DNA of 28,337 nucleotides. It comes from a virus. Under the pieces are notes generated by a model. That model saw only the letters and a list, made by a program, of their open reading frames with translations. It did not search any database and was not told the origin of the DNA. Shown here piece after piece: positions 1 through 28,299 of this stretch. The first letter of the stretch is position 1, and each line of letters opens with the position of its first letter. The stretch lies in the IMG/VR virus record IMGVR_UViG_3300025141_009759, positions 1 through 28,337 of that record; one strand, 5' to 3'. Position numbers and translations under genes: made by a program.

Positions 1-3000
1 TTCTAACTCTGATGTTCTGGGCCGGGTGACGATCTACAGTCGGCAGCCGAGGGTATGGGCTCTGTGGATTCAGCGCAAAATCAAATGACTGGTCTTGGAA
101 AAACGGATCATTGATTGTGCGGCCGGCGGTATTAATTACCTGATAGTTCTTCTCGTAGTTGCCGATGATCGTGGAGCCCGTGCGCATCTGAATGTTACGG
201 ATGTTGACGGGGCGCTTAGCTGTTTCCTCGCGGAAGCGTTGTGCTGTCGGCAGATCTGGAAGGTACCCGTGGGGCGCAGAGCCGAGAGGAGAATCAGCAA
301 ATGGAAAGTTCGGCGGGACAACACCCAGAGATCCCAATGCCGTAACAGAAGGGAGTACACCCAGTTCGAGCCTAAAACCTTCTGCTCTGGATTCTCTTGT
401 GTCTGTGCCGGTGTTCAGGGCTGTGTGTCGGTAGTAACGGCCACCAACATACTTTTCGGTAAATGGGCCCTGCATCGGGACAGCGTGGTCGTCGACGAAG
501 TCACTGTGAAGGTTTGTAACCATGGTGCCGGATTTGTACTGTGTTACAACTTGTGCGTTATATCCTGTTGTCACAGAGGAACTGTATAGGCTGAATGGCG
601 CTATTGTATTGCCGTCTGTTTTTCTACTTCCGTCAATGTTGATACTGGGATCCATCCCAAAGCCAAGCCTCTGCTTATATGTTGGATAGTAGACAGCCGG
701 ATTTTCCAATAGCTGTTCGACATCTGTATCGAAAGACAGCATGATATTGGTTGGAATGTTTGTATCGGGAACTGTCGGGCCACACGGAGCCGTCGCGGCG
801 AAGACATAGTTTGGTCTGTTGTTCGGGTGGCGAGCAACACCGACGACGGGCTTGTATCCCTCTGTAGAGAACTTTATGGGAGAATTAACCCTGCGGTCAA
901 AGGAGCTTCGGATAGCTTTGAGAAGATCAGTTCGGATAGAATCTTCCTGCTCTTCCATATAGCGGTGCCAGTATATGTTTTTGTTGGCGCCGTCGTTCGA
1001 TATTAGATATGGATCGACGAAAGAAGGAGATTCCGCGGTAATGTCTGCCGTCTCAAGGTTATTTCCGGTAGCATTGCGGCCGCCCACCTGATCATATATC
1101 GTGTCCTTGTCGTCGAGTGGATCGCTTCCCATTCGCCACCATGAAAGAAGGCTAGATGCGCAAGAAACTCCGCTCAAATAAACCCGTTTTCCGGAGCCAT
1201 AAATCTCAGTAACCTCAACTGACGAAAGTTCTTTGTCCCATACGGCCACATCGCACATGTAGCCCTCTATCCCGGCGGAGCCGACGACAGCGCCGATGCC
1301 CATACCGTAGGTGGTAATCGTACCGGGGGAGCCGGCCGTCGAGTCGCCTGCGGCCGGCAACGACGTATCAACATAAATTTTTGGAGGGATGGTCTCGCCG
1401 CCCCCAAATGTAACAACAAGATGTTGCCATGTGTCCAAAGATAATGCAGGACCAGTAGTAAGAGTATTGAAGTTGGTCCCGCAATCTGCTGCAATCCGGC
1501 CCGCGGTTGCATAATACCTGATCTTGCGACCGTTGGCCGTGGGAGCGCCGACTGCCCATAGGCTACGCCCATTAACAAAAGCAGTCTTGGGCCTAACCCA
1601 CATAGAAACACTAAAGGCTTTGGCGGCGCCGGCCGCTCCACCAATTAAACCCTCCCACACAGTATGTGTTGAAGACTGTAAGTATTCATCGACTCCGTCA
1701 AAAAGAATGGATTTAGCTATGCCGCCATCCTCAGTATCCTGAAGAGGAGCATGGAACATTTTCCAGGGCTGAACCTGTGAGGTGTTAGATGATCCAATCT
1801 GGCGTTTTGTGAATGCCGTATTGGAAATCATTCCAGTTCCCTGTGCGTACTCTTCGGGTGAACTCTGCGCTGACGAGTCTGCGGCCATATTGCCATCAAC
1901 AGAGCCTGTGATGTCTCCGCCGCCCTTGCGCTGGAGGAATGGGAATTTCTGCTGGTACTTTGGCCGCTCTAGAACGTGGCTTTCGATAACCGTTCTCACG
2001 TTCTCGCTGAAGTCTGCTGACGCGGGGACGAGTTGACCAAGCATCAAAGATAGTGAACTGTCAAACCACTTATAGAACTCATAAAACTTGTCAAAATCAA
2101 GTTGATCGTTCTCGACCTGCTCGAAGAACTTCTGTCGCATAAAGGAAAGCTGTTTATAATCAGGGCGGTAGCGCTCTACTTGATCGCCAATGAGGTTGTT
2201 AAAGTCCTTCATATTGGCGAAGTAGTTGATCATCTCTTCTGATATGACCTGATACATACTCTTTTCAAAAGCGAAGTAGTAATTGGTTGGTCGTGATTCA
2301 GTTGTGAAGACGTCCTGCTCTTGTGCGTTCAATACGCGGATCATATCTTGAGACTGTACGTTCTCGGGAAGGTTCAGTTTTGATGAAACAACATAGTCTT
2401 TGTCGATTGCTGTTGTCGAGGAGGCTGCGAAGAAGCGACCTTGGGCCGTATGCTGCCTACTAAGGATCCCGCTTAGTTCCCCAAACGTTTCAGTGTTGGC
2501 CGAGCCGGAGCTGATATCATCAACTGTAAGAAAACCTGTTGCTGCCGATCCTGTATTGTTGAGGAACTCCCAGTTAAATACAAGCGTGTCGATCTTCTTG
2601 GCATTGCCGAAGGATGCTGATGTGTTAAACTCAAATGCGTACAGGTGCGACTGCAACGCGCCGTGATTCTCGGTATCAAGGATGTGTCCGGTCAATGCTT
2701 CGTCACTAAGATAGTCCAGCCAGTAGCGGCATGCGTTAACTTTAACATCTGATCTTTGGAGGACTGCGCCAGTGAAGTTTTCTCTGTGAGCACCGATATA
2801 TACTCTCTTGGCGCTTGTCATAAAGGCATCCGGTGGCGCAGTGATTGAACCCGAGAGGGTAAACTGTTCCATAATCTCGCCGGCTTGCGCCTGAACACCG
2901 TGCAGTTCGACAATGTAGTTTGAGCTTGCTCCGTCCACAAGACCCTTAAGGGGGAACTCGGAAGGCCTGATACGTACCGACAAGTTCCATCTGGTGTTAT

Positions 3001-5320
3001 TGTATACGTTTTCGTACAGAGCTGTCTCTAGACGGGGAACGTAGCCTCCGGAGGATCCAGTTAGCAAGAATCTAACATTGTCGGAGTACTTTTCATCGCG
3101 GATGGCATACACCTGGAAGTTTCCATCTTCAGTGGTCCAAGTTGTGTCTGTACTGAGGGCCGCTTCAGCTCCGTGGACACCGAACAGAGAGGCTGAGATC
3201 ATACTGGTATTGAAGTATGCGTGTGCGGCCTGCTCTGGCTTGAGGGGGAATAATATCTCTGCTTCTAGGGTTGTCGCGTAGCCTCCCGTGAGTGCTGCAC
3301 TGGATGTAATATAGCTAACCGAGTTTGGATTAGAGACATCAGCGTAGTTGAATACTGTGGCCACCATGTTATCGGCAGTATTAAAGTTGATGAATCTGTC
3401 AGTTACGATTACGTTGCGTCTATTGTTCCTCAGTTCATACTCAACATTGTTGGCATACATATTGGTTTTGATTAGTTCGTCGTCAACACCAAAGCAACGA
3501 ATTAAGTTTCTAAATGCCTTTTCAGTACCCTTTGATTTATAAATGAAAGAGATATTATTGTAAATGTTTTGATATATCGTGTTCTTTATATCGTGGAGCG
3601 ACTTATCATAGAGACGCTTTTCGCTCCGGTCAGCGAGTTTCTCTAAAAGGTCAGCATCCAAGAAAAGATTGGGAGCTACCATGCCAGTGGAGGACAGCAG
3701 CTTCTCAGCAAATGGTAGGGGCTTCGCGAAACTCCCACTCATATAACGAATATCTTTGAGGGTATTAATGTTCTCAACTTGTAATTGTAATGTGTCAAAG
3801 TAGCTTGACAAAATCTGTGTCAACTGTCTGACGTCACCTGAACCTTCGGTATCTTCTTCTGTGATCCACGCGGGGATTGAATTGTAGACTGCCGCATTGT
3901 TGCTGGCATCGTGCGCCGAGCCAGATAGTTCCAATGAGGCAGCGAGCGCGACCACTTCAGGATGGAAAGAGTAAATAATCGGATCCTTGAACTCTGCTGT
4001 TGCTGCCGTGGATAAAACGATTGCTGAACCGGTGTTTCTAGACTTCGATGTATATCCTGTCCAGGTTCCATTGGAGTAGCGGCCCGAGTAATCTAGTACT
4101 GTGCTGTCTGTAGACTCAACGCCTGTGATTCCTTCGTTGAACTTGAAGTACACACCAAGGTTAACGTTCGCCATCTCCTGGGTTTCGATATATGGTAACG
4201 GATCTGTATTGACACCGCCGCCGACTTGTGTAAACCAGTATCTGCCGATATCCTTAGAAGTGCGCTGTGTCTTCCAGTACCGGAACTCATCGACCGAACC
4301 AGATAACTTGCCATAGTAGGCGCCAGCAGTAGAGCCGGAGGGCGCAGTAATGAGTGCCCCCAAGTATGCCTGCAGGCCTGTGGCGTCAATGTCATTAACT
4401 CCTGCTGTCCCAAGGGTCGTTTCATTGTTTAAATTTCCATCAACGTAAAAACGCGTCAAAACGCCAGCAGAGGCAGAAGCAAAAGTGAACGCGTAGTGGT
4501 GCCAGCTGTTATCTGTTACTTCGGCATAAGTTAGAGTTGATGCTGCGGGGTCTTGCCTGAAGAATCCGACTGAATCGTCGGAGCCAGATTGAAGGGTGAC
4601 CCGGAAGGGACTGCTGGGCGAAGCGGTGGAATCCAACTCAACCGTTAGGCGCCCATAGTCTGCCGAGGATGTCAGTTCGCCGTTCCACAAATCAAAGATG
4701 ACTTCGCGGGTGGAGCTGACGCCAGGAAAGTCGTCGTCTTTCTTGAGCCAAAATTCTACTGATGCACCGCGGGAAGCAATATCCATTTGGAGGTTTGACG
4801 CGCGATTCATCGACGGCTCGTAGTAGTTTGAGCCAGTGAATTGACCGGCCAAGGTTCCAGCGTTGGTGTCTGAAGGGTTGGGGCCACCTATAAAGAAAAT
4901 ATATTCATAGTCTGATGCATCAGCTGGTATTGCATATCCATCAGTGAGCGCTCCCGTCGCCCCCCAACCATCAGCCGAGAGGATCACATATCCATTTGTA
5001 CGTGGATACTTCTCTTGCAATATGTAAAGGTCGAGGTAAGTGGAATCATTTTGCCACTCTAGACGCTCCTTGAGCGATCCATCATACGGATATGTACCAT
5101 AAATTCTCTTTAGGGAGGAGTCGTAATACTCTTCAGCAGACCCGTAGCGAGCGAAGTTTTCTGGCTTCGAAAAGTCAGTATAAGGTATAAACCTCTCTTC
5201 TTCGATAATATCTTGTTCATGATATCCCGAGGACTCTATCTCTCCCGAAATATCATTAGATGTCTTGCTTGCCAGGGATTGTATACTCTCGGCAACTTCG
5301 AAGTATTTCTTGATGCTCAT
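1..5320 (-). CDS. Giant baseplate/tail protein with two LamG-like domains (3' end outside window)
   Basis: The frame is open from an ATG at 5320 to the left edge, giving at least 1773 residues without a stop; the C-terminus is missing. Residues about 155-355 and 1205-1375 are two LamG/concanavalin-like beta-sandwich domains. Each has the hallmark core pattern of that fold: VEFWLKK then WHHYAFTF in the first, and FSVSMWVRP then WQHLVVTFGG in the second. Such domains often bind glycans. Between them, residues 595-611 (KSKGTEKAFRNLIRCFG) follow a long helical stretch. They resemble the 'RGT..A(I/L)R' signature of P2 gpI-type tail proteins. The gene lies two genes after the gp6-like wedge gene, and in T4 gp7, a gpI-related wedge protein, follows gp6. 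I infer a wedge or peripheral baseplate protein carrying surface-binding domains. The start overlaps nothing: 7 bases separate it from the upstream stop. The LamG assignment is fairly sure; the gp7 analogy is inference. Confidence 0.85.
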   Translation of the reverse strand, partial: MSIKKYFEVAESIQSLASKTSNDISGEIESSGYHEQDIIEEERFIPYTDFSKPENFARYGSAEEYYDSSLKRIYGTYPYDGSLKERLEWQNDSTYLDLYILQEKYPRTNGYVILSADGWGATGALTDGYAIPADASDYEYIFFIGGPNPSDTNAGTLAGQFTGSNYYEPSMNRASNLQMDIASRGASVEFWLKKDDDFPGVSSTREVIFDLWNGELTSSADYGRLTVELDSTASPSSPFRVTLQSGSDDSVGFFRQDPAASTLTYAEVTDNSWHHYAFTFASASAGVLTRFYVDGNLNNETTLGTAGVNDIDATGLQAYLGALITAPSGSTAGAYYGKLSGSVDEFRYWKTQRTSKDIGRYWFTQVGGGVNTDPLPYIETQEMANVNLGVYFKFNEGITGVESTDSTVLDYSGRYSNGTWTGYTSKSRNTGSAIVLSTAATAEFKDPIIYSFHPEVVALAASLELSGSAHDASNNAAVYNSIPAWITEEDTEGSGDVRQLTQILSSYFDTLQLQVENINTLKDIRYMSGSFAKPLPFAEKLLSSTGMVAPNLFLDADLLEKLADRSEKRLYDKSLHDIKNTIYQNIYNNISFIYKSKGTEKAFRNLIRCFGVDDELIKTNMYANNVEYELRNNRRNVIVTDRFINFNTADNMVATVFNYADVSNPNSVSYITSSAALTGGYATTLEAEILFPLKPEQAAHAYFNTSMISASLFGVHGAEAALSTDTTWTTEDGNFQVYAIRDEKYSDNVRFLLTGSSGGYVPRLETALYENVYNNTRWNLSVRIRPSEFPLKGLVDGASSNYIVELHGVQAQAGEIMEQFTLSGSITAPPDAFMTSAKRVYIGAHRENFTGAVLQRSDVKVNACRYWLDYLSDEALTGHILDTENHGALQSHLYAFEFNTSASFGNAKKIDTLVFNWEFLNNTGSAATGFLTVDDISSGSANTETFGELSGILSRQHTAQGRFFAASSTTAIDKDYVVSSKLNLPENVQSQDMIRVLNAQEQDVFTTESRPTNYYFAFEKSMYQVISEEMINYFANMKDFNNLIGDQVERYRPDYKQLSFMRQKFFEQVENDQLDFDKFYEFYKWFDSSLSLMLGQLVPASADFSENVRTVIESHVLERPKYQQKFPFLQRKGGGDITGSVDGNMAADSSAQSSPEEYAQGTGMISNTAFTKRQIGSSNTSQVQPWKMFHAPLQDTEDGGIAKSILFDGVDEYLQSSTHTVWEGLIGGAAGAAKAFSVSMWVRPKTAFVNGRSLWAVGAPTANGRKIRYYATAGRIAADCGTNFNTLTTGPALSLDTWQHLVVTFGGGETIPPKIYVDTSLPAAGDSTAGSPGTITTYGMGIGAVVGSAGIEGYMCDVAVWDKELSSVEVTEIYGSGKRVYLSGVSCASSLLSWWRMGSDPLDDKDTIYDQVGGRNATGNNLETADITAESPSFVDPYLISNDGANKNIYWHRYMEEQEDSIRTDLLKAIRSSFDRRVNSPIKFSTEGYKPVVGVARHPNNRPNYVFAATAPCGPTVPDTNIPTNIMLSFDTDVEQLLENPAVYYPTYKQRLGFGMDPSINIDGSRKTDGNTIAPFSLYSSSVTTGYNAQVVTQYKSGTMVTNLHSDFVDDHAVPMQGPFTEKYVGGRYYRHTALNTGTDTRESRAEGFRLELGVLPSVTALGSLGVVPPNFPFADSPLGSAPHGYLPDLPTAQRFREETAKRPVNIRNIQMRTGSTIIGNYEKNYQVINTAGRTINDPFFQDQSFDFALNPQSPYPRLPTVDRHPAQNIRVR

Positions 5321-5327
5321 GTTCTAA

Positions 5328-6860
5328 TTATTCTTCAACTCTAAATTTGAACGCTTGTGGTTGTTCCTGCCAGTCTCCTATACTGTCGTTATAATAGGAC
5401 AATCTTATCTCGTACATATAATCTGACTCGAGCAGAGAGATATCGAGGTCAAAATAGTTTCCTTCCTTGTCGTATGACATCATGGTACACAAATCAGAAC
5501 CCGTACCATATGAAATGGCAGGATAATTGTCGGTGGTACGGTAGATTGCATATGAGGCGCTCTCGATAACATCAGTAGGATTGTTTGCCGTCGCAACGTT
5601 ATAGACTGTTGGGCTCCAATTTCTGTCGCGGACGAAGAAACGGAACCTTGCCTTGTCTTGTGTTGAGTATTTCTTTTTAAGATTTTTGCAGCTCGTAATA
5701 CGGTTGAACGTTGGGGCGCTGTCGTATGTCGGAAGCAATTCAGGGTAGAAGGAGCCTGTAAAGAACTCAACGGCGCCGGAGTGCCACACATCGTGGATCT
5801 CTAGGAGCGGTGTAGAGGCTGCTGTGAGCGCGAGACTGACCGAATACAGCCCTGCGCTCGTATAACTTGCTGTAGCGTTTGTATCGCCAGCAGAGACGAC
5901 TCCTGCGCCCACTGGGAGACTTAACTTTGAGCCCGTGGGGGTGCCGAACGAGCTGGAGTAAAACGAGACCCTTAGATCGCGAGTTCCGACGGCAGGAATA
6001 TTAACGAGGCGGCCGCGAACATAGTTGTAGAGACACAATTTATTGAGGTTATCGGCTGCAGGAGCAAGAGAGCTGGAGAAATAGAAGTTCTCTCTGTCAT
6101 CTTTTGTCGATGAGTCCCAACGTGCTTCTATCACAGGGCGTTTGTAAAAGAATTCTGTCGACCGGGCGAAGAACTTCTTTGTGTAATAAGATTGTTTAGC
6201 TCCATCGAGGTTCTGGATTGTGCCATTGGCTCCAGCGACTAGGGCATATGCTTCCTGACTAGCTGTAAGCCTAATGCCAAAACCATTACTCTTTATTACA
6301 CCGTCGCCGGCTGGCGTATCGAGGTACTTAATCCACTCTTCTACAATGTGGGAAACGTCGTGCTCTAGATCTTCGTAGCCTAGGGGGAAGGAAATGTTGT
6401 AATTTGACCCCGTATGATAATCTCCGCCGTCGCTTGTCCAGGCGGCGCCGCTGCTTCTTTCTCCCCAGTTTGCTTGGCCTAGGTCTTTATATTCGTCCAT
6501 ATCCAGGCCTGCGCCTTCGTTCCAAGAGCTAGATACCGGGGCAACAACCAAGTTAAAGTCTTGCGGCAATGTCCAGGGTGTTTCTGCGTTGAACATTTTA
6601 AGGTAGAATGAGACACTTCCGGAAGCAGGTATCTTGTTAGCTGTGCGGTTGGCTGCAATTGTCGCGACTGGAAACTGAATTAGAATGCGTGAGAGTTCTT
6701 GTGACTGCCCAATGGATCCCGACTCTTGCCCATATATGGAAAACACCTCTAGAGAGTCGGCATAACCCATGTTGGAGCCGGTGCCTCTCGTAACAAGGTT
6801 TGCCTCGTAGGCGTTTGTGATTGTAGTATCAGCGCTGGCTGTGTATCTTATAATAGACAT
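5328..6860 (-). CDS. Virion structural protein with N-terminal DNRLRE-like domain
   Basis: This 510-residue protein sits between the gp6-like gene and the giant LamG protein, so it is probably part of the baseplate or tail periphery. Residues about 4-180 follow the DNRLRE (CBM96-like) beta-sandwich pattern: an opening ADTTITNAYEANL, then SRILIQFPV, then VAPVSSSWNEGAGLD, and finally a DVSHIVEEWIKYL helix. This fold is known from secreted and cell-wall proteins that bind polysaccharide. The rest is beta-rich and rich in Ser, Tyr and Thr, with no catalytic motif I recognise. The ATG shares one base with the gp6 stop (TAATG), which suggests translational coupling. A receptor-binding or wedge-accessory role is inference. 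T4 gp8 normally sits near here, but I see no gp8 similarity. Confidence 0.85.
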   Translation of the reverse strand: MSIIRYTASADTTITNAYEANLVTRGTGSNMGYADSLEVFSIYGQESGSIGQSQELSRILIQFPVATIAANRTANKIPASGSVSFYLKMFNAETPWTLPQDFNLVVAPVSSSWNEGAGLDMDEYKDLGQANWGERSSGAAWTSDGGDYHTGSNYNISFPLGYEDLEHDVSHIVEEWIKYLDTPAGDGVIKSNGFGIRLTASQEAYALVAGANGTIQNLDGAKQSYYTKKFFARSTEFFYKRPVIEARWDSSTKDDRENFYFSSSLAPAADNLNKLCLYNYVRGRLVNIPAVGTRDLRVSFYSSSFGTPTGSKLSLPVGAGVVSAGDTNATASYTSAGLYSVSLALTAASTPLLEIHDVWHSGAVEFFTGSFYPELLPTYDSAPTFNRITSCKNLKKKYSTQDKARFRFFVRDRNWSPTVYNVATANNPTDVIESASYAIYRTTDNYPAISYGTGSDLCTMMSYDKEGNYFDLDISLLESDYMYEIRLSYYNDSIGDWQEQPQAFKFRVEE

Positions 6861-8659
6861 TAGGTAACTGACCCCTTGATATCAACGTTTGGGAACTTAA
6901 GTTCAAAAATGACATTCCGTGGTGCGGGGATTCGGCGGCCGTCCGCGGAAAGGTTTGCGGAGAAATTGTAACTCATATCTGAGTATGAGCTGCCGGCTTT
7001 ATTGATAATCTCCAGATCAACGACGTCGACGATACCGGGCACCTTTTGCAGGACTTTATAAAAATCCGTGATCCCGATCGATTCGCCGATATCGTATTGA
7101 TTTTTATTCAGGTAGGTAGCTATCGCTGATTTCGCTTTATTAAGTACAGTAAACTTGTTCACATTTGTATCCGTAACCACCACATAGTTGATACCAAAGT
7201 TCACTATTGTGGCGTCCAGTATGTCAACAGTATCATTGATAATTTTATACTGTAATAGCCAAGTTTTTAAATTGTTTTTTAATACTTGGTTGGCCGCGGT
7301 CAATTTATTGCTTGTATTCTCAGAGACTACATAGATATTTATGTTTCTTCGGAGTTCATCAAAGTCGCGACTAACTGCCACTCTTTTGACAGCACCAAAT
7401 TTGCCGGGCATACCATAACATATCGCCTGATAGTCCTGTATGGTGACTGCACGATTCTGGGCAGCATAGAACCCAAAGACTCTCTGCTTCACCTCTTCTG
7501 AACTGGGGAGTGAAATATCACCTGTGAACTGCTCGTCGTTCGTGACCTCTAGGGAGCCCACCACAATGTTTCTTTGGACTTGGCTTAGGCCCCCTTGGGC
7601 TCTAAACTTAAATTTGGGTGAGTCAATATTAGTAATCGTGGCCACCGAAGCATTAACATCATTGACCTCGTTTGTTCGATACGCTATCCGAAGAGTTGTG
7701 TTTGATGGCGCGATGCCAAATTTATCGCTACTAATTAATTTCGTAGGATCGAACTCAGCATCTGTAACATATGTTCTACCGTTTAAGTCCAAGATCAAGT
7801 TTGTTGGATCCACAACAGCGTCCGAAAGTAGCTCAGAGTCTGAGCCATATCCAAACTGAAGGTATGTTGTAGTATCCGACGACTCAACTGTGAACCGGCG
7901 AGCGACAGGGACAGCCTTCATAATGCTACTGACTGTGCCAGCTGTCGAGGTGTCAGTGTTTCTAATCGCCTTATAAATCACATTTTGAGAAAGGTTGTCG
8001 ACTTGAACATACTCATGTCCCTCTAAATCAACCACGGAAATGACATCTGTTATGTTCTGTGTGCCAAGGTTAACCTTAAGGAATCTCTCGAAATCAAATA
8101 CTTCGACCTCTTTGAAGTTTGTGCGCCCTGAAACAGCACGACCTTGTGCCCTAATTACATAGTTAAGAACATCATTGGTGCTGTTGTCAATATCCTTGGG
8201 TACCACCTGATTTGTTAGGACTGCAAAATTAACGTCATCAAGCAAAGTATAAGAGCCACCGCCGAGAGAAGAGAATACAGAGCCCTGCGCAAGAGTGGGA
8301 GCATATGCCAGGTCTGGGCCCAAGCTGTTCGGGTTTGCGGGGACTTGAATATAGAAGGTAAGCATGCCATATGATGAAGGGTTTCTATTAAGCTTGAACC
8401 CCATCTGTCGAGCGAGGCGCAAAACGTTATCATACTCTACAGCTGTTTCTAAGAAACTCTCATTTGCTTGATAGTCGACATAAAAAGACAGGATATCACC
8501 AACATATGCCACAGTATCGAGCATTAGTGACCCAAAGGATGCTTTATTGAAGTCCTTGTAGGTATCTGGGTAATATCGCTTCGCGTAATTCTCTAAATCT
8601 TTACGAATAGAATCAAAATCGCGGCTCGTATAATCTATCGGTTGCAGTTTTTTTGGCAT
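6860..8659 (-). CDS. Baseplate wedge protein, gp6/Baseplate_J-like
   Basis: The protein has 599 residues, close to T4 gp6 (660). The N-terminus (PIDYTSRDFDSIRKDL, then FNKASFGSLMLDTVAYVGD and LSFYVDYQANESFLETA) is the typical opening of gp6-like and Baseplate_J family proteins. These form the dimer that links neighbouring wedges into the ring around the hub. The middle is beta-rich. The region around residues 410-450 (YAAQNRAVTIQDYQAICYG) matches the conserved 'r.VT..DYe..v' segment of the J/gp6 fold. It lies directly downstream of the gp25-like gene, as expected for partner wedge subunits. A purine-rich ribosome-binding site (AAGAGACC) precedes the ATG. Confidence 0.93.
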   Translation of the reverse strand: MPKKLQPIDYTSRDFDSIRKDLENYAKRYYPDTYKDFNKASFGSLMLDTVAYVGDILSFYVDYQANESFLETAVEYDNVLRLARQMGFKLNRNPSSYGMLTFYIQVPANPNSLGPDLAYAPTLAQGSVFSSLGGGSYTLLDDVNFAVLTNQVVPKDIDNSTNDVLNYVIRAQGRAVSGRTNFKEVEVFDFERFLKVNLGTQNITDVISVVDLEGHEYVQVDNLSQNVIYKAIRNTDTSTAGTVSSIMKAVPVARRFTVESSDTTTYLQFGYGSDSELLSDAVVDPTNLILDLNGRTYVTDAEFDPTKLISSDKFGIAPSNTTLRIAYRTNEVNDVNASVATITNIDSPKFKFRAQGGLSQVQRNIVVGSLEVTNDEQFTGDISLPSSEEVKQRVFGFYAAQNRAVTIQDYQAICYGMPGKFGAVKRVAVSRDFDELRRNINIYVVSENTSNKLTAANQVLKNNLKTWLLQYKIINDTVDILDATIVNFGINYVVVTDTNVNKFTVLNKAKSAIATYLNKNQYDIGESIGITDFYKVLQKVPGIVDVVDLEIINKAGSSYSDMSYNFSANLSADGRRIPAPRNVIFELKFPNVDIKGSVT

Positions 8660-8675
8660 GATAAGGTCTCTTTAA

Positions 8676-9065
8676 TTAGTTGTTTATGTTAATTTGTAGC
8701 GATGTACTCTGTTTAAGCGGTACAATGGTGAAAAATATACTTAGTCTGATGGAATTGGGAAACAAATCTGGATTATCTTCTCTGGCTGAAAAATCAACAT
8801 GATCAATCTGAATGTATGACATATATGTGTCTACCTGCTCTTGTAGGCGCGATCTTATACTGTCGTAGGTGTTGGTGGTATTGTTCTCAAATAGATACCT
8901 TGAGATCCCGACACCAAAGTTGGGATACATAATGCGCTCCCCGGGGTTTGTGAGCACCAACATTTTTAAATTTTGTTTTGCTAGATCATCAAACGTTGTG
9001 TTTAGGTCGTATGGGCCGAACACATTGCTGACAACTAGTGGTAATTTTACAGATAATCCTGACAT
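8676..9065 (-). CDS. Baseplate wedge protein, gp25-like (GPW/gp25 family)
   Basis: The 129-residue length is almost that of T4 gp25 (132). The family core is visible at residues 34-60: LKMLVLTNPGERIMYPNFG followed by VGISRYLFEN. This corresponds to the 'll.T..GeR...p.fG.gl..llFe' signature. The protein is a small wedge subunit that nucleates sheath assembly on the baseplate. It sits between the 1754-residue protein and gp6, and gp25-gp6 adjacency is common in contractile-tail systems. A good ribosome-binding site (AAAGGAAAAAC) precedes the ATG. Confidence 0.93.
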   Translation of the reverse strand: MSGLSVKLPLVVSNVFGPYDLNTTFDDLAKQNLKMLVLTNPGERIMYPNFGVGISRYLFENNTTNTYDSIRSRLQEQVDTYMSYIQIDHVDFSAREDNPDLFPNSIRLSIFFTIVPLKQSTSLQININN

Positions 9066-19896: not shown

Positions 19897-19904
19897 TATT
19901 TAAA
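19897..19904 (-). promoter_or_regulatory. Candidate late promoter (TTTAAATA)
   Basis: On the minus strand TTTAAATA differs by one base from the T4 late consensus TATAAATA. It overlaps the stop codon of the GMD gene and would start transcription in the 80-base gap ahead of the small-gene, sigma-factor and baseplate block. Location and the gp55-like gene support it, but the match is imperfect and the area is AT-rich. A TATAAATT string at 19824-19831 is an alternative but sits too close to the start codon at 19819. Confidence 0.25.
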
Positions 19905-20892
19905 ACTTTTTTACATAAATCTCTGATATCCAGCGATCTATCATCTCTTCTAACATAGACTCAAAGGTATACTCTGGTTCCCATCCAAGTACCTCTCGGG
20001 ATTTGGAAGAATCTCCTTTGAGATACTTTAACTCCTCAGGTCGCATATACTTGGGATTTTGCACTACATAATCTTCATAGTTCATCCCCAGCTTTGTAAA
20101 CACTATCTCACATAAGTGGCGGACAGTGTGAGTTTCGCCTGTAGCAACTATAAATTCTTCGGGTGTACCATGGTTAATTATCATATGCATAGCCCTTACG
20201 TAGTCCTTAGAATGTCCCCAATCTCTAGAGGAGTCCATATTACCCAACTCTAATTTGTCAGCGAGGCCCTTTTTGATCTGTACAGCTGTTTTCACGACCT
20301 TGTTTGTCACGAAGTTGGTGCCGCGTCGAGGGGATTCATGATTAAACAATATACCATTGCAAGCGTGTAATCCGTAGGCGTGACGATAGTGGCGTACGAG
20401 GTTGTATCCCATCACTTTAGCGCACCCGTAGGGGCTCACTGGGGTCATTGGAGTTGTTAGGCGTTGTATTCCGTCTTCATCAACGGAGTTTCCAAACATT
20501 TCAGACGAGCTAGCTTGATAGAATTTTGCAGTAGGGCAGATAGTCCTATAAATTTCTAGCATATTTAATACGCCCATCGCATTAGTTTGGATAGTAAACG
20601 ATGGCATATCGAAGCTCACTCGGACATGACTCATAGCGCCTAAATTATAAATCTCATCTGGCTGAACCTTTGTCATAATTCTCACAAGCGACGGATAGTC
20701 GAGAAGATCACCATAGTGGGTGTGCACATTGGGCAAATCTCCTAGCTTACCCAATCGGAAGTTCTGGTTTTCGGCCACCGAATGGCGGCGTACAATGCCA
20801 TGAACCTCATAGCCCTTAGAACTTAATAATTCTGTTAGGTAGCTGCCGTCCTGGCCTGATATGCCTGTTATCAATGCTTTTTTCATTTTCAT
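19900..20892 (-). CDS. gmd: GDP-mannose 4,6-dehydratase
   Basis: This enzyme converts GDP-D-mannose to GDP-4-keto-6-deoxy-D-mannose, the branch point to fucose, rhamnose, perosamine and related sugars. It is a 330-residue extended SDR protein. The NADP-binding GISGQDG lies at residues 10-16. The active site is S129-S130-E131 and Y155-xxx-K159 (PYGCAK). The GMD-specific elements NHESPRRG (184-191) and SSRDWGHSKDYV (221-232) are intact, so it should be active. Bacterial GMDs are about 325-375 residues. The ATG overlaps the sulfotransferase stop by one base (TAATG); a second ATG two codons later is equally possible. No GDP-fucose synthase or GDP-rhamnose reductase is visible nearby, so the product is probably used by the aminotransferase genes upstream or by host enzymes. 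Confidence 0.95.
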   Translation of the reverse strand: MKMKKALITGISGQDGSYLTELLSSKGYEVHGIVRRHSVAENQNFRLGKLGDLPNVHTHYGDLLDYPSLVRIMTKVQPDEIYNLGAMSHVRVSFDMPSFTIQTNAMGVLNMLEIYRTICPTAKFYQASSSEMFGNSVDEDGIQRLTTPMTPVSPYGCAKVMGYNLVRHYRHAYGLHACNGILFNHESPRRGTNFVTNKVVKTAVQIKKGLADKLELGNMDSSRDWGHSKDYVRAMHMIINHGTPEEFIVATGETHTVRHLCEIVFTKLGMNYEDYVVQNPKYMRPEELKYLKGDSSKSREVLGWEPEYTFESMLEEMIDRWISEIYVKKF

Positions 20893-21554
20893 TATTCCAA
20901 TTTTTCCCAGTATTCAATATAAGATTCTAATTTATTATCTAATATTTTTATTTGTTTTTCATTAAAAACTTTATCCCATTGTCTAAAGCCATTGTGCACG
21001 TGATCTCCATGTATATGGGTGTCCTTGTCATATTCAGAAAAATTTGAAAAGACACTTTGCTTCTTCCTTATTGCTTCTTTTGAAAAGTCTTTCTCGATTG
21101 AATCTCTTATTTCTTTACTTATTTTACCATCATATGTGTCTTCTAATCTATCAAATAAATAATCAAAATTGCAATGCCAATTTTCATACTTTAAAAATAG
21201 GCCTTCGGGATTTTCTTTTTCGGCGAGTCTAATGCCATTAAAAGACCCCATGATTTCATCACACGCAGCAACTAGGTCGCTGTTGTTAGAAAAAGTTCTT
21301 TTTTTATTAACTCTTATAAGAGAAACAGCAACATCTTTAGGGTCCCTCCAGGTGGTTATCAGCACTTTATTTCCCCCAGGGCGTAGTTTTTCATAGCTAT
21401 GAGTGCGGTCGACTGGATACCTGTACGAATGATTGGCAAAACACTTCTCATCGTTGAAGACTCTATTTAAAATCAATCTTAGCACAGTGCCTCCAGATCT
21501 CACCATACTTTTTTGAACTACTACAGTTTTAAACCATATATCCATCTTATTCAT
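20892..21554 (-). CDS. PAPS-dependent sulfotransferase-like protein
   Basis: This 220-residue protein has the two cofactor signatures of the sulfotransferase family. A 5'-phosphosulfate loop lies near residues 15-25 (KSMVRSGGTVL, corresponding to KSGTTWL). A 3'-phosphate motif lies at about 69-79 (WRDPKDVAVSL). The C-terminal stretch (GFRQWDKVFNEKQIKILDN) matches the typical 'G.W...ft.eq' ending. It would move sulfate from PAPS to a hydroxyl, probably on a sugar given its neighbours. Length is short but within range for bacterial and viral members. The gene is strikingly AT-rich compared with its surroundings. It overlaps the half-length DegT gene by 8 bases. An ATG three codons downstream (21545) has a better spaced GAGG. 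Acceptor unknown. Confidence 0.82.
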   Translation of the reverse strand: MNKMDIWFKTVVVQKSMVRSGGTVLRLILNRVFNDEKCFANHSYRYPVDRTHSYEKLRPGGNKVLITTWRDPKDVAVSLIRVNKKRTFSNNSDLVAACDEIMGSFNGIRLAEKENPEGLFLKYENWHCNFDYLFDRLEDTYDGKISKEIRDSIEKDFSKEAIRKKQSVFSNFSEYDKDTHIHGDHVHNGFRQWDKVFNEKQIKILDNKLESYIEYWEKLE

Positions 21555-22152
21555 TCCTCTTCTTGTTAAAAATAACCATTTGTGTTAGATCAGGCCAATC
21601 GGTGGCCACCCATTTCTTGGGAGGGGTGGCAATCGCAGCAGGTAATTTACTTAATCCTAGTTGTGCTGTTTCCGGGGTCATATAATAATGATAACCCATT
21701 GTGTCTATGTCCTGCTCTCTCCAAGGTATATTAGGTATTCTACCATCATATGACATCTTTTTTAACATTTTCGCATCTTTTGGGTTATCCGTCAGAATCA
21801 TTCCGCCTCGACCGAGGCTCAGGTGCTTTCTAAACTGAAAACTTAAGCACATGAGCGTGTCAGGGATATATGAGTTTTGTTCCCATAGGACCGCAGCATC
21901 GACTATGTTGGTTCCTCCTAGAAAATAATAATCCTCCCAATCTTCATCTCTCCATTGAAATTCAATGCCTAGTTTGGTGGCTAGAAATGGAACGGATATA
22001 TAGGTTCTTTTTGGCACGGTATAATGTGTAATACCTTGGTGGCGTAAGCACAACTCTAATCCATGAGTGCAGCAGTCTATTGCTACCGCATAGGGCGCCC
22101 CGAAATAGTCGGCGACCTTAGTCTCTAGTTCTTCAATTGCTTCAAACGACAT
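21547..22152 (-). CDS. Half-length DegT/DnrJ/EryC1-family protein
   Basis: Only 201 residues are present, against about 370 for normal sugar aminotransferases of this family. What remains corresponds to the PLP-binding large domain. It has YFGAPYAVAIDCCTHGLEL (the cofactor phosphate region), D85 in IVDAA, and the presumptive PLP lysine K109 in SFQFRKHLSLGRGG. It ends soon after MTPETAQLGLSKL and lacks the C-terminal small domain. There is no frameshift: the next gene begins in another frame and is unrelated. The conserved lysine and aspartate suggest a functional mini-aminotransferase or a partner subunit rather than decay. The ATG immediately follows the acyltransferase stop. Substrate unknown; a sugar 4- or 3-keto nucleotide is likely from context. 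Confidence 0.8.
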   Translation of the reverse strand: MSFEAIEELETKVADYFGAPYAVAIDCCTHGLELCLRHQGITHYTVPKRTYISVPFLATKLGIEFQWRDEDWEDYYFLGGTNIVDAAVLWEQNSYIPDTLMCLSFQFRKHLSLGRGGMILTDNPKDAKMLKKMSYDGRIPNIPWREQDIDTMGYHYYMTPETAQLGLSKLPAAIATPPKKWVATDWPDLTQMVIFNKKRNE

Positions 22153-23093: not shown

Positions 23094-23827
23094 CCTGCCT
23101 TCCAATCTTTCAATGAGATGAAAATCTCGTATTCCTCGTCATTAAGTCTCTGAAATTTATTCCAGCCAAAGTTTCGTCCGCTCTTGCTTACTAGCATGTC
23201 ATTATGCTGCTTTGCGTTGATGCCGCCCTTCACTACCGAATTAATCCATGGAGCGATGGGTTTAGACTTGGGTACCAATAAGGTGTGTCCATCATTCTTA
23301 GCTCGGGGAATATTGTTAATCTCTAAAGCCCACATATTCGGTTGATCAAAATATTTGAGATAGTAATCCTTACGAATAAGACTCTGAGCTGCAGTATATC
23401 TATAATCCATATCTTGTGGAAAAATATTAAAATCGTCACTAAAGGGGCGCGATGACATATATTGATAGCGCGCCCCGAGAAATAATTCGACCTTAGATGC
23501 CTTGTTCTCCCGGAGAAGGGTGGCGCCTTTACTCAGTAGGTCTTGATCAACCGTATCTATTAGGAATGCGTCCTCTAACATCAACACGAAAATATCAGTA
23601 TCGAGGCTCTCAAGAATGGGGCGAAAGGGCTCTACGACTGACTTTGGAGGGAAATCCTCTTGTTTTCCGGCCGAGATAAACTTAAAGTTGTCGGGCAACT
23701 TTGTCTCTGGTGGTTTAAAGCCCAGAATATTAACTTTCTGATCCGGGGACCAATGTTTATTGAATAGATAAGCGAACTTGTCCAGTAACGAAACATATCT
23801 ATCGGATGTAAAAACTATAACTTCCAT
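23090..23827 (-). CDS. Putative glycosyltransferase (GT-A-like, uncharacterised)
   Basis: From the ATG at 23827 the protein has 245 residues. This start has GGAG 6 bases upstream, while the ATG at 23839 (four codons longer) has only a weak site. The N-terminus MEVIVFTSDRYVSLLDKFAYL looks like a Rossmann-type first strand. FVLMLEDAFLID (residues about 80-91) resembles the strand-plus-acidic motif (a DxD variant) that holds the metal and nucleotide sugar in GT-A enzymes. Later elements such as DYRYTAAQSLIRKDYYLK and MWALEINN are consistent with acceptor-side loops. I cannot assign a CAZy family. It overlaps the GT9-like gene at its 5' end and is coupled to the cupin gene at its 3' end. Confidence 0.72.
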   Translation of the reverse strand: MEVIVFTSDRYVSLLDKFAYLFNKHWSPDQKVNILGFKPPETKLPDNFKFISAGKQEDFPPKSVVEPFRPILESLDTDIFVLMLEDAFLIDTVDQDLLSKGATLLRENKASKVELFLGARYQYMSSRPFSDDFNIFPQDMDYRYTAAQSLIRKDYYLKYFDQPNMWALEINNIPRAKNDGHTLLVPKSKPIAPWINSVVKGGINAKQHNDMLVSKSGRNFGWNKFQRLNDEEYEIFISLKDWKAG

Positions 23828-24648
23828 TCTTTTCTCCATTTATTAAACTCTGCGAACACATTCTCGGGCGTAGGGTGCCAGGATTTTTCAGACAAAAACA
23901 GAACAGCTGTTGCATGGGGGTTCCATGTATTAATATACCTATCCCTGTTGCCTTCTTTCGACCACACCACATGGGGGGCTCCACATAAACTAGCTAGATG
24001 CATCGGTCCAGAGGAAGGTCCAAAAACACAGTCGCTATTGCGAATCACATCAAAAACAATCGCCAAATCCCCATCACGCAAATCTGTGGTGTCATCAATA
24101 TGCGCGGACTCAGCTGATGTTCCTATGCATGCTATGGTGGATCCATCATTTTGTAGTTTATCCCGAAGGTGTTTCCAGTTCGTCAGACTCCAATTATCTT
24201 CCTTGCGCAGATCTCGATCGCGAATGTGGAAAATATAGTCATAGGACTTATCTCCTATATCTCCAAATTTGAGATAGTGGGGTATTATATGTCTTTCCCC
24301 AAATACTTCGGACTGTGTGCAGGGTGTAAAAGGAGGCATCCCCAGGCGCCTGGGAGGGATAAGGGTGGTGCCTGGCTTGAAGAGTTGAGTATGAGATTGT
24401 AGCACCTCCTTCAAGACGCGGCTTGTATCTACTCCATGCATAAAGAAAGAATCCGCTAGCCCACTGAGTTCTGGCAGAGATATGAACTCATCAGCAAAGT
24501 CCGCATATAAAGCCTGCGAGGTAGAACGACATATAACAACAGTATTATCGTAATGCTGGGAAAGAGAGCGCATATGCGCCTGCCACGCAAATAGTTCCCA
24601 ACCAAATTCCCCAACCCAAGGTCCGACGATTAGCTGTTTTACACTCAT
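23815..24648 (-). CDS. Glycosyltransferase, GT9/heptosyltransferase-like
   Basis: This 277-residue protein starts QLIVGPWVGEFGWELFAWQ, the glycine-rich N-terminal element of GT-B glycosyltransferases. FGPSSGPMHLASLCGAPHVV (209-228) matches the donor-binding 'GpdSGpmHlA.algtP.v' block typical of heptosyltransferase-like GT9 enzymes. DYIFHIRDRDLRKEDNW (about 137-153) begins the second Rossmann half. Typical GT9 enzymes have about 320-350 residues, so this one is compact. It starts 3 bases after the DegT aminotransferase stop. The donor is unknown; the modified sugar made by neighbouring genes is a reasonable guess. Confidence 0.82.
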   Translation of the reverse strand: MSVKQLIVGPWVGEFGWELFAWQAHMRSLSQHYDNTVVICRSTSQALYADFADEFISLPELSGLADSFFMHGVDTSRVLKEVLQSHTQLFKPGTTLIPPRRLGMPPFTPCTQSEVFGERHIIPHYLKFGDIGDKSYDYIFHIRDRDLRKEDNWSLTNWKHLRDKLQNDGSTIACIGTSAESAHIDDTTDLRDGDLAIVFDVIRNSDCVFGPSSGPMHLASLCGAPHVVWSKEGNRDRYINTWNPHATAVLFLSEKSWHPTPENVFAEFNKWRKEWKL

Positions 24649-24651
24649 TGG

Positions 24652-25761
24652 TTACTGCTTCTGAGATATATATCTCTTTAGCTCGTCGCAAACCTTTACG
24701 ATTTGTTCTTGTGTAAGCTCTGCATACATCGGCAGACTCAGACAGTGGCTAGCATTATATTCGGCATTCGGAAACTGACCGGGGGAACCATACGAGTCCG
24801 CCAACACCTCTTGCAAATGGAGGGGGGTAGGGTAATGTAGTCCTGTGGCTACTCCGTTTTCTTTTAAAAATGTCTGGGCATCTTTGGGATCTGCGAGATG
24901 TACAACAAATAGGTGCCATACGGGATTCGCCCACTCTTCTACTACGGGCAGCGTCAGTCCGGGGACATCAGAAAGATGTTCTAAGTAGGTGGCAGCATTA
25001 TCGCAGCGCTGCTTGGTCCAGTCTGCGATATAATCTAGTTTAATGGCTAGGCCGGCAGCAAGGACCGATGAGAGACGCGAGTTATTGCCTAAAACGTTAT
25101 GTACATATTTTTCGCTAGAGCCATGGTTTCGGACTTGCTGTATAATATTAGCTAGTTCAGTGCTATTTGTCGTAACGGCGCCACCTTCGCCGGTTGCTCC
25201 CAAATTCTTTCCGGGATAGAATGAGAATGCTGCAGCATCTCCCAGTGATCCACAAGGAGAACCTTTATATGTTGCTAGATGAGCTTGTGCGCTGTCCTCT
25301 AGTACCCAGAGATTTCGTTCTTGAGCTATTTCCTTGAGCGCGTCCATATCACACGGCTGTCCATACAAATGTACCCCGATAATACCCGCTGTACGGTCAG
25401 TGATCGCTGCGCGGACACTTTCGGGATCTATGTTCCAGGTTCCCCACTTGCAATCAACTAGCACCGGGATAGCGCCCACTAACATGACCGCTTCAGCAGT
25501 GGCCACAAAAGTATTGGCAGGTAGAATTACCTCATCCCCGGGTTCGACGCCCAGCGCGCGGAGAGCAACTTCTAGTGCGTCAGTCCCACTTGACACGCCG
25601 ACGCACCCTTGGGCGTCGCAAAGCGTGGCAAAACCGGTTTCAAATTTCTCCAACCAGGGCCCGCCGACAAAACCAGTGCAGTCTATAATTTCTTCCCAGG
25701 CCTCAAGAAGCTGCTTTTTAATTTGTTGGTGTTGGGGCTTTAAATCTACAAAAGGTATCAT
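24652..25761 (-). CDS. DegT/DnrJ/EryC1/StrS sugar aminotransferase (FdtB/WbpE-like)
   Basis: This full-length (369 aa) PLP-dependent transaminase acts on nucleotide-linked keto sugars. The start IPFVDLKPQHQQI, the GVSSGTDALEVALRALGV phosphate-binding region (55-72), LEDSAQAHLA with D156, and SFYPGKNLGATGEGGAV with the PLP lysine K185 are all intact. So are HLYGQPCDMDAL and C-terminal LSLPMYAELTQEQI. The 'YPGKNLGATGEGGAV' form is common in the subgroup that makes 3-amino sugars (FdtB, QdtB, WbpE/WlbE), but 4-amination (perosamine-type) cannot be excluded from the sequence alone. Its ATG overlaps the formyltransferase stop by 4 bases, so amination and formylation are probably consecutive steps. 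Confidence 0.93.
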   Translation of the reverse strand: MIPFVDLKPQHQQIKKQLLEAWEEIIDCTGFVGGPWLEKFETGFATLCDAQGCVGVSSGTDALEVALRALGVEPGDEVILPANTFVATAEAVMLVGAIPVLVDCKWGTWNIDPESVRAAITDRTAGIIGVHLYGQPCDMDALKEIAQERNLWVLEDSAQAHLATYKGSPCGSLGDAAAFSFYPGKNLGATGEGGAVTTNSTELANIIQQVRNHGSSEKYVHNVLGNNSRLSSVLAAGLAIKLDYIADWTKQRCDNAATYLEHLSDVPGLTLPVVEEWANPVWHLFVVHLADPKDAQTFLKENGVATGLHYPTPLHLQEVLADSYGSPGQFPNAEYNASHCLSLPMYAELTQEQIVKVCDELKRYISQKQ

Positions 25762-26408
25762 TGGGTTTTTTCTCCTAAGCTTGTCTCTTTAGTAAAATAC
25801 CTTCTCTCGCCCAACAGGTGATTATCTTTTGAGCTATGATATATTACTTCTTTATCGTTTTGTGTGCGTGGCTTTATGCGGTCAAGAACTGGCATTGTTT
25901 GAGTAAACAATGTATACGCATATTCTAGTGCTTTATTGTATACATCTGCCACCTCTTCAAAATCTGGATATATAGAATATTTAACTTGTCCCATGATCGG
26001 GCCGTCGTCGATGCCGGGGTGGATTTGGTGTATTGTCACTCCATGCTCTGTTTGGTTATCTTTGAGGGCCCAGTTGATGGGAGAAACACCACGATATTTT
26101 GGAAGTGGAGAGTTGTGTAAATTGATAAGATTTTTACACCTTCTTATGAAGGGTTCCTTAATAATTTTATCATAGAAAACAGATATTACTAAATCCATCT
26201 TTTCGATGTCCGGGGAGTCCCGGTAGTGGCCACTCTCCACTATCTTGATCTTATGCATAGCAGCCCATTCCATAAGTGACTCTGTCCAAGTCGGCTCTGG
26301 TACCACTGGAACGATGTACTCTAGCGTATGCTGTTCGCTCTCATAGAACCATTGGGCTATTCTGACTGCCAGCAGGCCCTTTCCCATTAGCACAACTCTT
26401 TTTGTCAT
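25758..26408 (-). CDS. Sugar N-formyltransferase-like protein
   Basis: Numbered from the ATG at 26408 (216 aa), it contains the formyltransferase catalytic core. N96 and H98 lie in NLHNSPLPKYRG, and D134 lies in HPGIDDGPI. The intervening GVSPINWAL and HGVTIHQI segments fit methionyl-tRNA and sugar formyltransferase N-terminal domains. It lacks the tRNA-binding C-terminal domain of Fmt, so a sugar acceptor is far more likely. Such enzymes (e.g. VioF, QdtF, WlaRD) formylate the amino group of dTDP- or GDP-linked amino sugars using N10-formyl-tetrahydrofolate. A GTG one codon earlier (26411) is an alternative start. It is flanked by an oxidoreductase and an aminotransferase, forming a logical oxidation, amination, formylation set. 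Confidence 0.88.
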   Translation of the reverse strand: MTKRVVLMGKGLLAVRIAQWFYESEQHTLEYIVPVVPEPTWTESLMEWAAMHKIKIVESGHYRDSPDIEKMDLVISVFYDKIIKEPFIRRCKNLINLHNSPLPKYRGVSPINWALKDNQTEHGVTIHQIHPGIDDGPIMGQVKYSIYPDFEEVADVYNKALEYAYTLFTQTMPVLDRIKPRTQNDKEVIYHSSKDNHLLGERRYFTKETSLGEKTQ

Positions 26409-27418
26409 CACTGATTAGTGCTTACTTTCACTGTTTGCTCTGTTGCTAGGGATTCGTTGGCCAGCTCTAGAATTTGAACTATCTGTGCAGCCTTTGTGCC
26501 GGTGGCAACAGGTTCTGCGTTCTCTTGAATGCAGCGTGCAAAATCGGTGGCGACTTCGAGCAGCGGTTCAGTCGCATCCACCATAGGAGCGATGCTGCCC
26601 TCATCCGTGTACACAAACTCTTCATTCTTTAATTTCATATTTTTATGATAGATTTTAATTTTTTCAGTAGGCACCAAATCGTCCCAGAGGAGCATCCTAT
26701 CGGTCCCCACGATAGTCATTTGTCGAATTTTTTGAGGCGCCAACCAACTATTATGAATAGTAACGCGCGTGTCGTTTTTGAGGTTGACAGTAAGATGCGC
26801 ATCTGCAACATGGGACGACTGTGGGTGGCGAACTCCTGTAGCGTTAGCGGACACAGGGCTATAACCTTCGCCCAACACATATTCGCAAATTGAAAGATCG
26901 TGAGGGGCCAAATCCCACAACACATTGACATCTTTCTGAAACAATCCAAGGTTTGTTCTTATGGAGTTAATAGCTACAACGTCTCCCAATGTTCCACTTT
27001 CTATAACTTGACGAATACGCCTGACGGGGCCCGAATAACAGAAGGTATGATCACACATCAGTGTAAGATTGTTGTTGCTTGCCTCAGCTACCAACTGTGT
27101 TGCCTGCTCATAATTTAACGCAATTGGCTTTTCAACAAGGACGTGTTTTCCGCACCGCAATGCTGCCATGGCAATATCAAAGTGCGTGCGTACCGGAGTG
27201 GCAACAGCAATAGCATCTACATTTGCATTTTCTAGCATTGTGGTCACATCAGCATAAATTTCTATGTCTCCATAATCTTCTATGCGTGTTTTGGCTAGTT
27301 CTGTATTAGCATCACAAACTGCTGTTACAGTGGTCAACGTACAATTAACAAAGTTTCGGAGAAGATTTTTCCCCCAATAGCCCGTTCCTACAAGGCCTAT
27401 TTTAACGCGTTCTGTCAT
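26408..27418 (-). CDS. Gfo/Idh/MocA-family sugar oxidoreductase
   Basis: This NAD(P)-dependent enzyme has 336 residues, the usual family length. The Rossmann fingerprint GLVGTGYWG lies near residues 8-16. The family signature HVLVEKPIAL is at 92-101 (E96-K97-P98). LWDLAPHDLS (167-176) supplies the conserved Asp and His of the catalytic region. Relatives in surface-polysaccharide clusters (WbpB/WlbA) oxidise C3 of UDP-sugar uronates to 3-keto sugars, which a DegT-type enzyme then aminates. The order here (oxidoreductase, formyltransferase, DegT) fits such a route, but no uronate dehydrogenase is visible, so substrate identity is open. It is coupled to both neighbours: ATGA upstream, and a TGATG (or GTGA) junction downstream. 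Confidence 0.9.
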   Translation of the reverse strand: MTERVKIGLVGTGYWGKNLLRNFVNCTLTTVTAVCDANTELAKTRIEDYGDIEIYADVTTMLENANVDAIAVATPVRTHFDIAMAALRCGKHVLVEKPIALNYEQATQLVAEASNNNLTLMCDHTFCYSGPVRRIRQVIESGTLGDVVAINSIRTNLGLFQKDVNVLWDLAPHDLSICEYVLGEGYSPVSANATGVRHPQSSHVADAHLTVNLKNDTRVTIHNSWLAPQKIRQMTIVGTDRMLLWDDLVPTEKIKIYHKNMKLKNEEFVYTDEGSIAPMVDATEPLLEVATDFARCIQENAEPVATGTKAAQIVQILELANESLATEQTVKVSTNQ

Positions 27419-28299
27419 GAATTAGTTACCTTCTCGTGGTAGATATCGAGGACCTTCTGGGCCCAGGCGTCCTTTGACATGCCCTGAACCTTCTTATATC
27501 CCTGCAGCCTTATTTTATCTCTCTTTTCCGGATTTTTTAAGTAATAAGTTATCTTTTGATTAAGGTCATCTGCGTCGGTATAGATAACCAAATCCTCACC
27601 ATCGGTAAACAGCTCTTGACGCCCTTCCCAATCTGACGTAAGGAGAAAACCCCGAGCGCCGAGGACCTTATATACCCTATCAGAAGCACCGCCCATAGTG
27701 GCCAAATTAAGATTTATCTTCGTTCTGGACACAACCACCGCATGCTCGCCCGCATAGGCATTCGACACATGGGTAACCGGGTGGTCTATGGTGGCTAGCC
27801 ATTTTCTCCGCTCCGAATGTAATGACCCGATAAATGTGAGGCCCAGATCTTGATCTGCTTCGTGAGGCTTATGGAATAATGGGTCATAGCCTTCCAGTAT
27901 ATAATGCACCTCCGGATTGACTTCCTTAAAAACACTAATAGTGTTAGCAACACCAGTGCAAACATATGTACTATGACGGGCCTTATCTAAGATTCCGGTT
28001 GTCTGATTGAGGGTGCTCAGAGGGTCCATCCACCACAGGCAAGTCGTTGTTAGCTCTGAGCACTCCACAAAGACGCGAGTATCTAACTCCGCGCACTTAG
28101 AGAATACTACTAGATCGGGGCGTCTTTCTCGGCATGTATCAATGATTAGTTGATCCAGCGCTTCGGATCCTATTTCTTGTTGTTTTTGTCGGAAATTAAT
28201 CCCTATAACCTGTGCTCCTGTCTTAAGGAACCCACGCAATTGTGCGTTATTGGTTGACCGATTAGCGCTATCAAATACGCCAATGAATAAAATCTTCAT
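27415..28299 (-). CDS. Glycosyltransferase, CgeB-like/GT4-like
   Basis: This 294-residue protein starts MKILFIGVFDSANRSTNN. Residues about 180-275 (SRTKINLNLATMGG, SDRVYKVLGARGFLLTSDW, ELFTDGEDLVIYTDADDL, ITYYLKNPEKRDKI) match the C-terminal nucleotide-sugar-binding half of CgeB/Glyco_trans_1_2-type GT-B enzymes. That includes the '(R)vfE.lg.GgflLt' and 'v.y.d.dDL..ki.yyl' elements. The N-terminal half (WWMDPLSTL near 89-97) resembles DUF3880-type acceptor domains. It probably transfers a sugar to a protein or glycan acceptor. The ATG shares 4 bases (ATGA) with the end of the upstream frame. Confidence 0.85.
   Translation of the reverse strand: MKILFIGVFDSANRSTNNAQLRGFLKTGAQVIGINFRQKQQEIGSEALDQLIIDTCRERRPDLVVFSKCAELDTRVFVECSELTTTCLWWMDPLSTLNQTTGILDKARHSTYVCTGVANTISVFKEVNPEVHYILEGYDPLFHKPHEADQDLGLTFIGSLHSERRKWLATIDHPVTHVSNAYAGEHAVVVSRTKINLNLATMGGASDRVYKVLGARGFLLTSDWEGRQELFTDGEDLVIYTDADDLNQKITYYLKNPEKRDKIRLQGYKKVQGMSKDAWAQKVLDIYHEKVTNS

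Follow-up and report, generated by a model that had tools for sequence, protein, structure and literature searches.

A candidate viral gene set for an activated 3-formamido sugar whose formyltransferase slot holds an acetyltransferase in related phages

The 3-N-formyltransferases WlaRD, HCAN_0200, FdtF, and QdtF are proteins of 274–417 aa with an extra C-terminal region that act on dTDP-sugars and have a ketoisomerase partner. GnnA and GnnB, a Gfo-family 3-dehydrogenase and a DegT-family enzyme, convert UDP-GlcNAc to UDP-GlcNAc3N for lipid A and have, to our knowledge, no dedicated N-acyl cap. The WbpB-WbpE-WbpD (WlbA-WlbC-WlbB) enzymes form the pathway to UDP-GlcNAc3NAcA (PMC10622841). On perosamine, an acetyltransferase can replace the formyltransferase that acts on the same amino sugar, altering antigenicity (PMC5981137). 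Furthermore, viral auxiliary genes resembling wbpD, wbpE, and gnnA have been reported from metagenomes as single annotations (PMC12783922, PMC13211439). Unlike the locus described here, those reports describe no formyl variant or slot exchange.

We analyzed a single virus record of 28,337 bases, an incomplete metagenome contig hereafter called the window. It carries contiguous genes for a Gfo/Idh/MocA oxidoreductase (Gfo), an N-formyltransferase (FT), and a DegT/DnrJ/EryC1/StrS aminotransferase (DegT) (Table 1). The preliminary description of this DNA had the three genes overlapping by 1–4 bases with intact active-site motifs, which is borne out by the ORF coordinates, Pfam scores, and motif residues. 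The overlaps within the trio are 4 bases each when the FT starts at GTG; if it starts at the ATG one codon later, the Gfo/FT overlap is 1 base. Upstream, the glycosyltransferase gene and Gfo share 4 bases as well. The Pfam matches score far over the cut-offs (GFO_IDH_MocA, 91.6; Formyl_trans_N, 80.8; DegT_DnrJ_EryC1, 381.7 bits), and the proteins retain the EKP and WDLAPHD motifs (Gfo), residues N97/H99/D135 (FT), and the PLP lysine K185 (DegT).

Table 1. Positions of the trio, neighboring sugar genes, and the block that differs from the closest related contig (L004).
Feature	Position in window	Strand	Description and evidence
Glycosyltransferase (Glyco_trans_1_2, Pfam)	27415-28299	minus	294 aa; first in coupled gene run; 99% identical in L004
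Gfo/Idh/MocA oxidoreductase (Gfo)	26408-27418	minus	336 aa; proposed nucleotide-sugar C3 dehydrogenase; Pfam, motifs, NF040723
N-formyltransferase (FT)	25758-26411	minus	217 aa; proposed sugar 3-N-formyltransferase; Pfam, PDB profile, AF2 model, Foldseek, triad
DegT/DnrJ/EryC1/StrS aminotransferase (DegT)	24652-25761	minus	369 aa; proposed C3 aminotransferase; Pfam, PDB search, tree
Island protein	23815-24648	minus	277 aa; directly downstream of trio; glycosyltransferase-like by inspection alone
GDP-mannose 4,6-dehydratase (GMD)-like gene	19900-20892	minus	330 aa; same island; TIGR01472 gmd 367 bits, cut-off 415
Block differing from L004	25552-26902		Gfo C-terminal half, whole FT, and first ~70 DegT codons

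Scanning viral contigs with an FT alignment identified 14 further viral loci with an FT, 12 of which have Gfo and DegT genes alongside; single-sequence FT or DegT queries found none or few relatives and performed less well than alignments. Eleven of the 12 have the order FT-Gfo-DegT, with ~0.9 kb between FT and Gfo in two of them (L119 and L125), and one (L118) has the Gfo-FT-DegT order of the window, which also occurs in two bacterial MAGs (L023 and L084). Because the same three families sit together in the 12 viral loci and both MAGs, the trio is confirmed as a real gene set beyond chance grouping. In L118, the trio is followed by a nucleotide-sugar 6-dehydrogenase gene (TIGR03026, over cut-off), which would fit a uronic-acid version of the product in that virus. 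We also identified in another of the viral loci (L116, 5400–7108) a second Gfo-formyltransferase pair directly upstream of the trio, as a possible source of a second formylated sugar in one virus; its members share 25 and 28% identity with their counterparts in the window.

The trio lies in a sugar island that extends down to the GMD-like gene and adjoins late genes for a late sigma factor-like protein, an endolysin-bearing protein, and baseplate proteins. Given the glycosyltransferase and further sugar-modifying genes of this island, the product of the trio probably goes onto a glycan, either of the phage or of the host, to which the island glycosyltransferases would transfer it. The 277-aa island protein has no Pfam or NCBIfam match and is conserved in four related viral contigs (L004, L005, L006, and L011). 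The island also has a 201-aa DegT relative (21547–22152) of about half the usual length that keeps the lysine in its PLP-lysine context (SFQFRKHLSLGRGG). Its identity is 96–100% to the copies in L004 and L005 and 65% to the one in L011 (dN/dS 0.13). It sits beside a GMD-like gene and a hexapeptide acyltransferase gene and is a possible minimal sugar aminotransferase. At the contig end, an open-ended minus-strand ORF (2–5320) of at least 1773 aa probably encodes a structural or fibre protein.

For a PDB search, we built an FT profile from the window sequence plus two homologues of bacterial origin that share 57 and 54% identity with it. Its full-length matches were FdtF and WlaRD (70 bits each), HCAN_0200 (66 bits), and QdtF (61 bits), with lower scores for Fmt (54 bits), PurN (48 bits), WbkC (43 bits), and VioF (30 bits). 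The 4-N enzyme ArnA reached 70 bits, level with the 3-N enzymes but over a shorter stretch. An AlphaFold (AF2) model of the FT (pLDDT 92.8, pTM 0.88) was compared by Foldseek, where HCAN_0200 and WlaRD were on top (E about 4e-18 to 9e-18) and WbkC first appeared at rank 41. Pfam, alignment, model, and fold search agree on a Formyl_trans_N fold with the N-H-D catalytic triad, which is shared with these 3-N-formyltransferases and invariant across 16 FT homologues. Thus, the FT does not cluster with non-sugar enzymes, an outcome that the preliminary description had named as contrary to its proposal; sugar formyltransferases are its closest known relatives in both searches. Unlike WlaRD, HCAN_0200, FdtF, and QdtF, the window protein has only 217 aa and is paired with a Gfo. 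Differences from the L116 homologue amount to 34, 22, and 58% at the three codon positions, a distribution typical of a constrained protein.

The best PDB relatives of the DegT are QdtB and 2oga (which we take to be DesV), then 7b0d, 7n63 (presumably HCAN_0198), 5u1z (presumably WlaRG), and WbpE. QdtB, DesV, HCAN_0198, WlaRG, and WbpE all transaminate at C3. We placed the window DegT in a maximum-likelihood tree whose C3 and C4 references came from the PDB alignments and E. coli K-12, and it fell on the C3-reference side, separated by a 100/99 split from the C4 enzymes perosamine synthetase, ArnB, and WecE. The DegT proteins of the 12 viral trio loci were likewise on the C3 side. The preliminary description named N-formylperosamine and 3-formamido sugars as examples from bacteria. 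Of these, the evidence favors a 3-formamido sugar, whereas the distance of the DegT from perosamine synthetase and the other C4 enzymes disfavors N-formylperosamine. Gfo enzymes are a diverse family. The nearest named NCBIfam model for the Gfo of the window and of all relatives tested is UDP-GlcNAc 3-dehydrogenase (NF040723), always under cut-off (168 bits in the window, far under the cut-off of 450).

These assignments are most economically, and most probably, read as three steps at carbon 3: oxidation, amination, and formylation. Acting on a nucleotide sugar, with UDP-GlcNAc or a near derivative as the likeliest, the Gfo would oxidize this carbon to a ketone that the DegT would convert to an amine, and the FT would put a formyl group from N10-formyl-tetrahydrofolate on the new amine. 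Such a virus-encoded route to a formamido sugar by oxidation, transamination, and N-formylation had been suggested at the outset and is supported by the closeness of the FT to sugar formyltransferases. Counting against this reading are the sub-cut-off Gfo score in a diverse family and the ArnA score; moreover, the known 3-N-formyltransferases act on dTDP-sugars, and dTDP-sugar enzymes rather than WbpE are the best DegT matches in the PDB. The predicted C3 dehydrogenase of the Gfo family, the C3 aminotransferase of the DegT family, and an N-acyltransferase for the new 3-amine are features of the Wbp pathway. However, the window has an unrelated formyltransferase in the place of WbpD/WlbB, its DegT sequence is distant from WbpE, and no UDP-GlcNAc 6-dehydrogenase (WbpA) was seen in its 28 kb; that enzyme may come from the host or lie off the contig. 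Because the slot holds an unrelated formyltransferase, we describe the window as working like the Wbp pathway and do not file it as a member. The likeness to GnnA-GnnB lies in the Gfo 3-dehydrogenase, as the closest named family, and the DegT; the difference is the FT coupled to them.

Other functions for the trio have to be weighed against the route through carbon 3 of UDP-GlcNAc. DegT and FT could take the parts of QdtB and QdtF and work from a dTDP-3-keto sugar, with the Gfo as an oxidoreductase at another step, to yield a dTDP-3-formamido-3,6-dideoxyhexose of the Qui3NFo/Fuc3NFo type. This would agree with dTDP-3-amino-sugar enzymes being the closest relatives of both proteins, but neither a dTDP-glucose 4,6-dehydratase nor a QdtA/FdtA ketoisomerase was recognized in the window, itself an incomplete contig. 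Its sole cupin is a sub-cut-off WbuC match, its sole dehydratase is GMD-like, and the constant partner of the FT is a Gfo instead, all of which make the dTDP-sugar unlikely. The GMD-like gene, also found in the L116 island, could instead supply a 4-keto sugar for conversion by the DegT to GDP-perosamine and by the FT to GDP-N-formylperosamine, while the Gfo does something else. Known surface sugars do include N-formylperosamine (PMC5981137). Yet we rejected this 4-formamido product, to which we assign a small probability, as the DegT is not of the perosamine synthetase (C4) type in the tree. Furthermore, the perosamine formyltransferase WbkC falls well behind the 3-N enzymes in both rankings, the Gfo is left without a role, and in two loci (L118 and L117) the stretch read holds the trio but no GMD match. 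A function of the FT in nucleotide or tRNA metabolism, with its place between Gfo and DegT incidental, is suggested by weak matches to PurN-type genes of marine phages such as P-SSM7 and by fmt as its best, sub-cut-off NCBIfam match. We rejected it as extremely improbable because sugar formyltransferases outscore PurN and Fmt in the profile and Foldseek searches; the recurrent company of Gfo and DegT also speaks against it. If the sugar reading holds, it also cautions against labelling such phage formyltransferases PurN or Fmt.

The four related viral contigs have the gene order glycosyltransferase, Gfo, acyltransferase, DegT, and in all of them the FT slot is occupied by a hexapeptide (left-handed beta-helix type) acetyltransferase, as in the Wbp pathway. 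For the L004 protein, the best PDB matches are the WxcM-like 4mzu, 3mqg (presumably WlbB), and QdtC. The WxcM-like protein, WlbB, and QdtC are 3-amino-sugar N-acetyltransferases. Profile comparison found no relation between the FT and the L004 acetyltransferase. L004 is the closest relative of the window, with flanks 97–100% identical and one ~1.35-kb block of difference with sharp borders, which we placed using sliding identity and mismatch positions. The Gfo genes are 98.8% identical over nt 1–520 and 61% over the remainder, the middle genes are unrelated, and the DegT genes are 68% identical over the first 215 bases and 99.6% beyond. The block was probably imported by homologous recombination. 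The DegT start is 89% identical between L004 and L005 and 68–69% between the window and either, and the window is thus more likely the recipient. The block ends remain closest to L004/L005 (Gfo 62–64%, DegT 77% protein identity) while the FT is closest to L116 (60%), which points to a donor that probably carried a formyl allele and belonged to this operon lineage. Six island genes common to the window and L005, which include the unswapped DegT part and exclude the FT, have dN/dS values of 0.00–0.13 and are under purifying selection.

Both borders lie inside strongly conserved coding motifs, as homologous recombination would leave them, but such motifs are also places where assembly software could fuse two genomes. 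As the window and L004 are both metagenome contigs, their difference could have arisen by chimeric assembly of two phages occurring together. This is quite unlikely: neither border disrupts a reading frame or a 4-base overlap, the Gfo-FT-DegT order recurs in L118, L023, and L084, and the trio itself is independent of the borders. Returning to recombination, the phages of this group seem to exchange one chemical tag for another on a surface sugar, because close relatives hold an acetyl-adding gene in exactly the FT slot. Recombination in the conserved Gfo and DegT genes would exchange the acyl cassette with the acetyltransferase allele and alter the group on the same sugar. We consider it fairly probable that the trio is a viral pathway to an activated 3-formamido sugar whose acyl cassette is exchanged in this manner.

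A second case of acetyl/formyl alternation is found in bacterial MAGs, where Gfo-acetyltransferase-DegT occurs in L022, L024–L030, and others. The flanking proteins of L022 and L023 are 76–82% identical and the middle gene is different. No bacterial donor of the FT was found, since genome scans at E <= 1e-30 recovered the family in two of 379 genomes of the L023 phylum (both already known) and in none of 398 genomes from the phylum to which the alphaproteobacterial MAG L038 belongs. Annotated phage records gave distant matches at most.

The protein families involved are all known; what appears to be new is their combination and its exchange. In the open-access literature, we did not find a Gfo, a C3 aminotransferase, and a formyltransferase combined and alternating with an acetyltransferase in near-identical phages. 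Nor did the literature searched, which left out most subscription journals, mention a phage formyl variant or contain a relevant paper on 2-acetamido-3-formamido sugars; this absence is weak evidence. The replacement known for perosamine was engineered in a bacterium and concerns C4, whereas the phage alternation is natural, viral, and probably at C3. It is possible, if somewhat short of probable, that phages vary a surface sugar by acetyl/formyl cassette exchange through homologous recombination in one operon and have a new dehydrogenase route to 3-formamido sugars. If true, a formyl variant carried and exchanged by viruses is added to the Wbp/Gnn amino-sugar pathway, and the cassette exchange is the equivalent, among phages, of a serotype switch. 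The acetyl and formyl alleles of near-identical phages would then be a natural matched pair for testing whether phage adsorption, exclusion of competing phages, or virion survival responds to a minor acyl difference in a glycan.

The island varies at other positions as well. A sulfotransferase-like gene (window 20892–21554) is present in L004 and missing between the same neighbors in L005, a further sign of island gene turnover. In L011, the same island has another formyltransferase, more distant at 31% identity, beside two epimerase/dehydratase genes and a short DegT (5772–8911). Upstream in the islands of L004 (700–2676) and L005 (2703–4679) are epimerase, cytidylyltransferase-like, and PfkB-kinase genes that look like a heptose-type sugar route.
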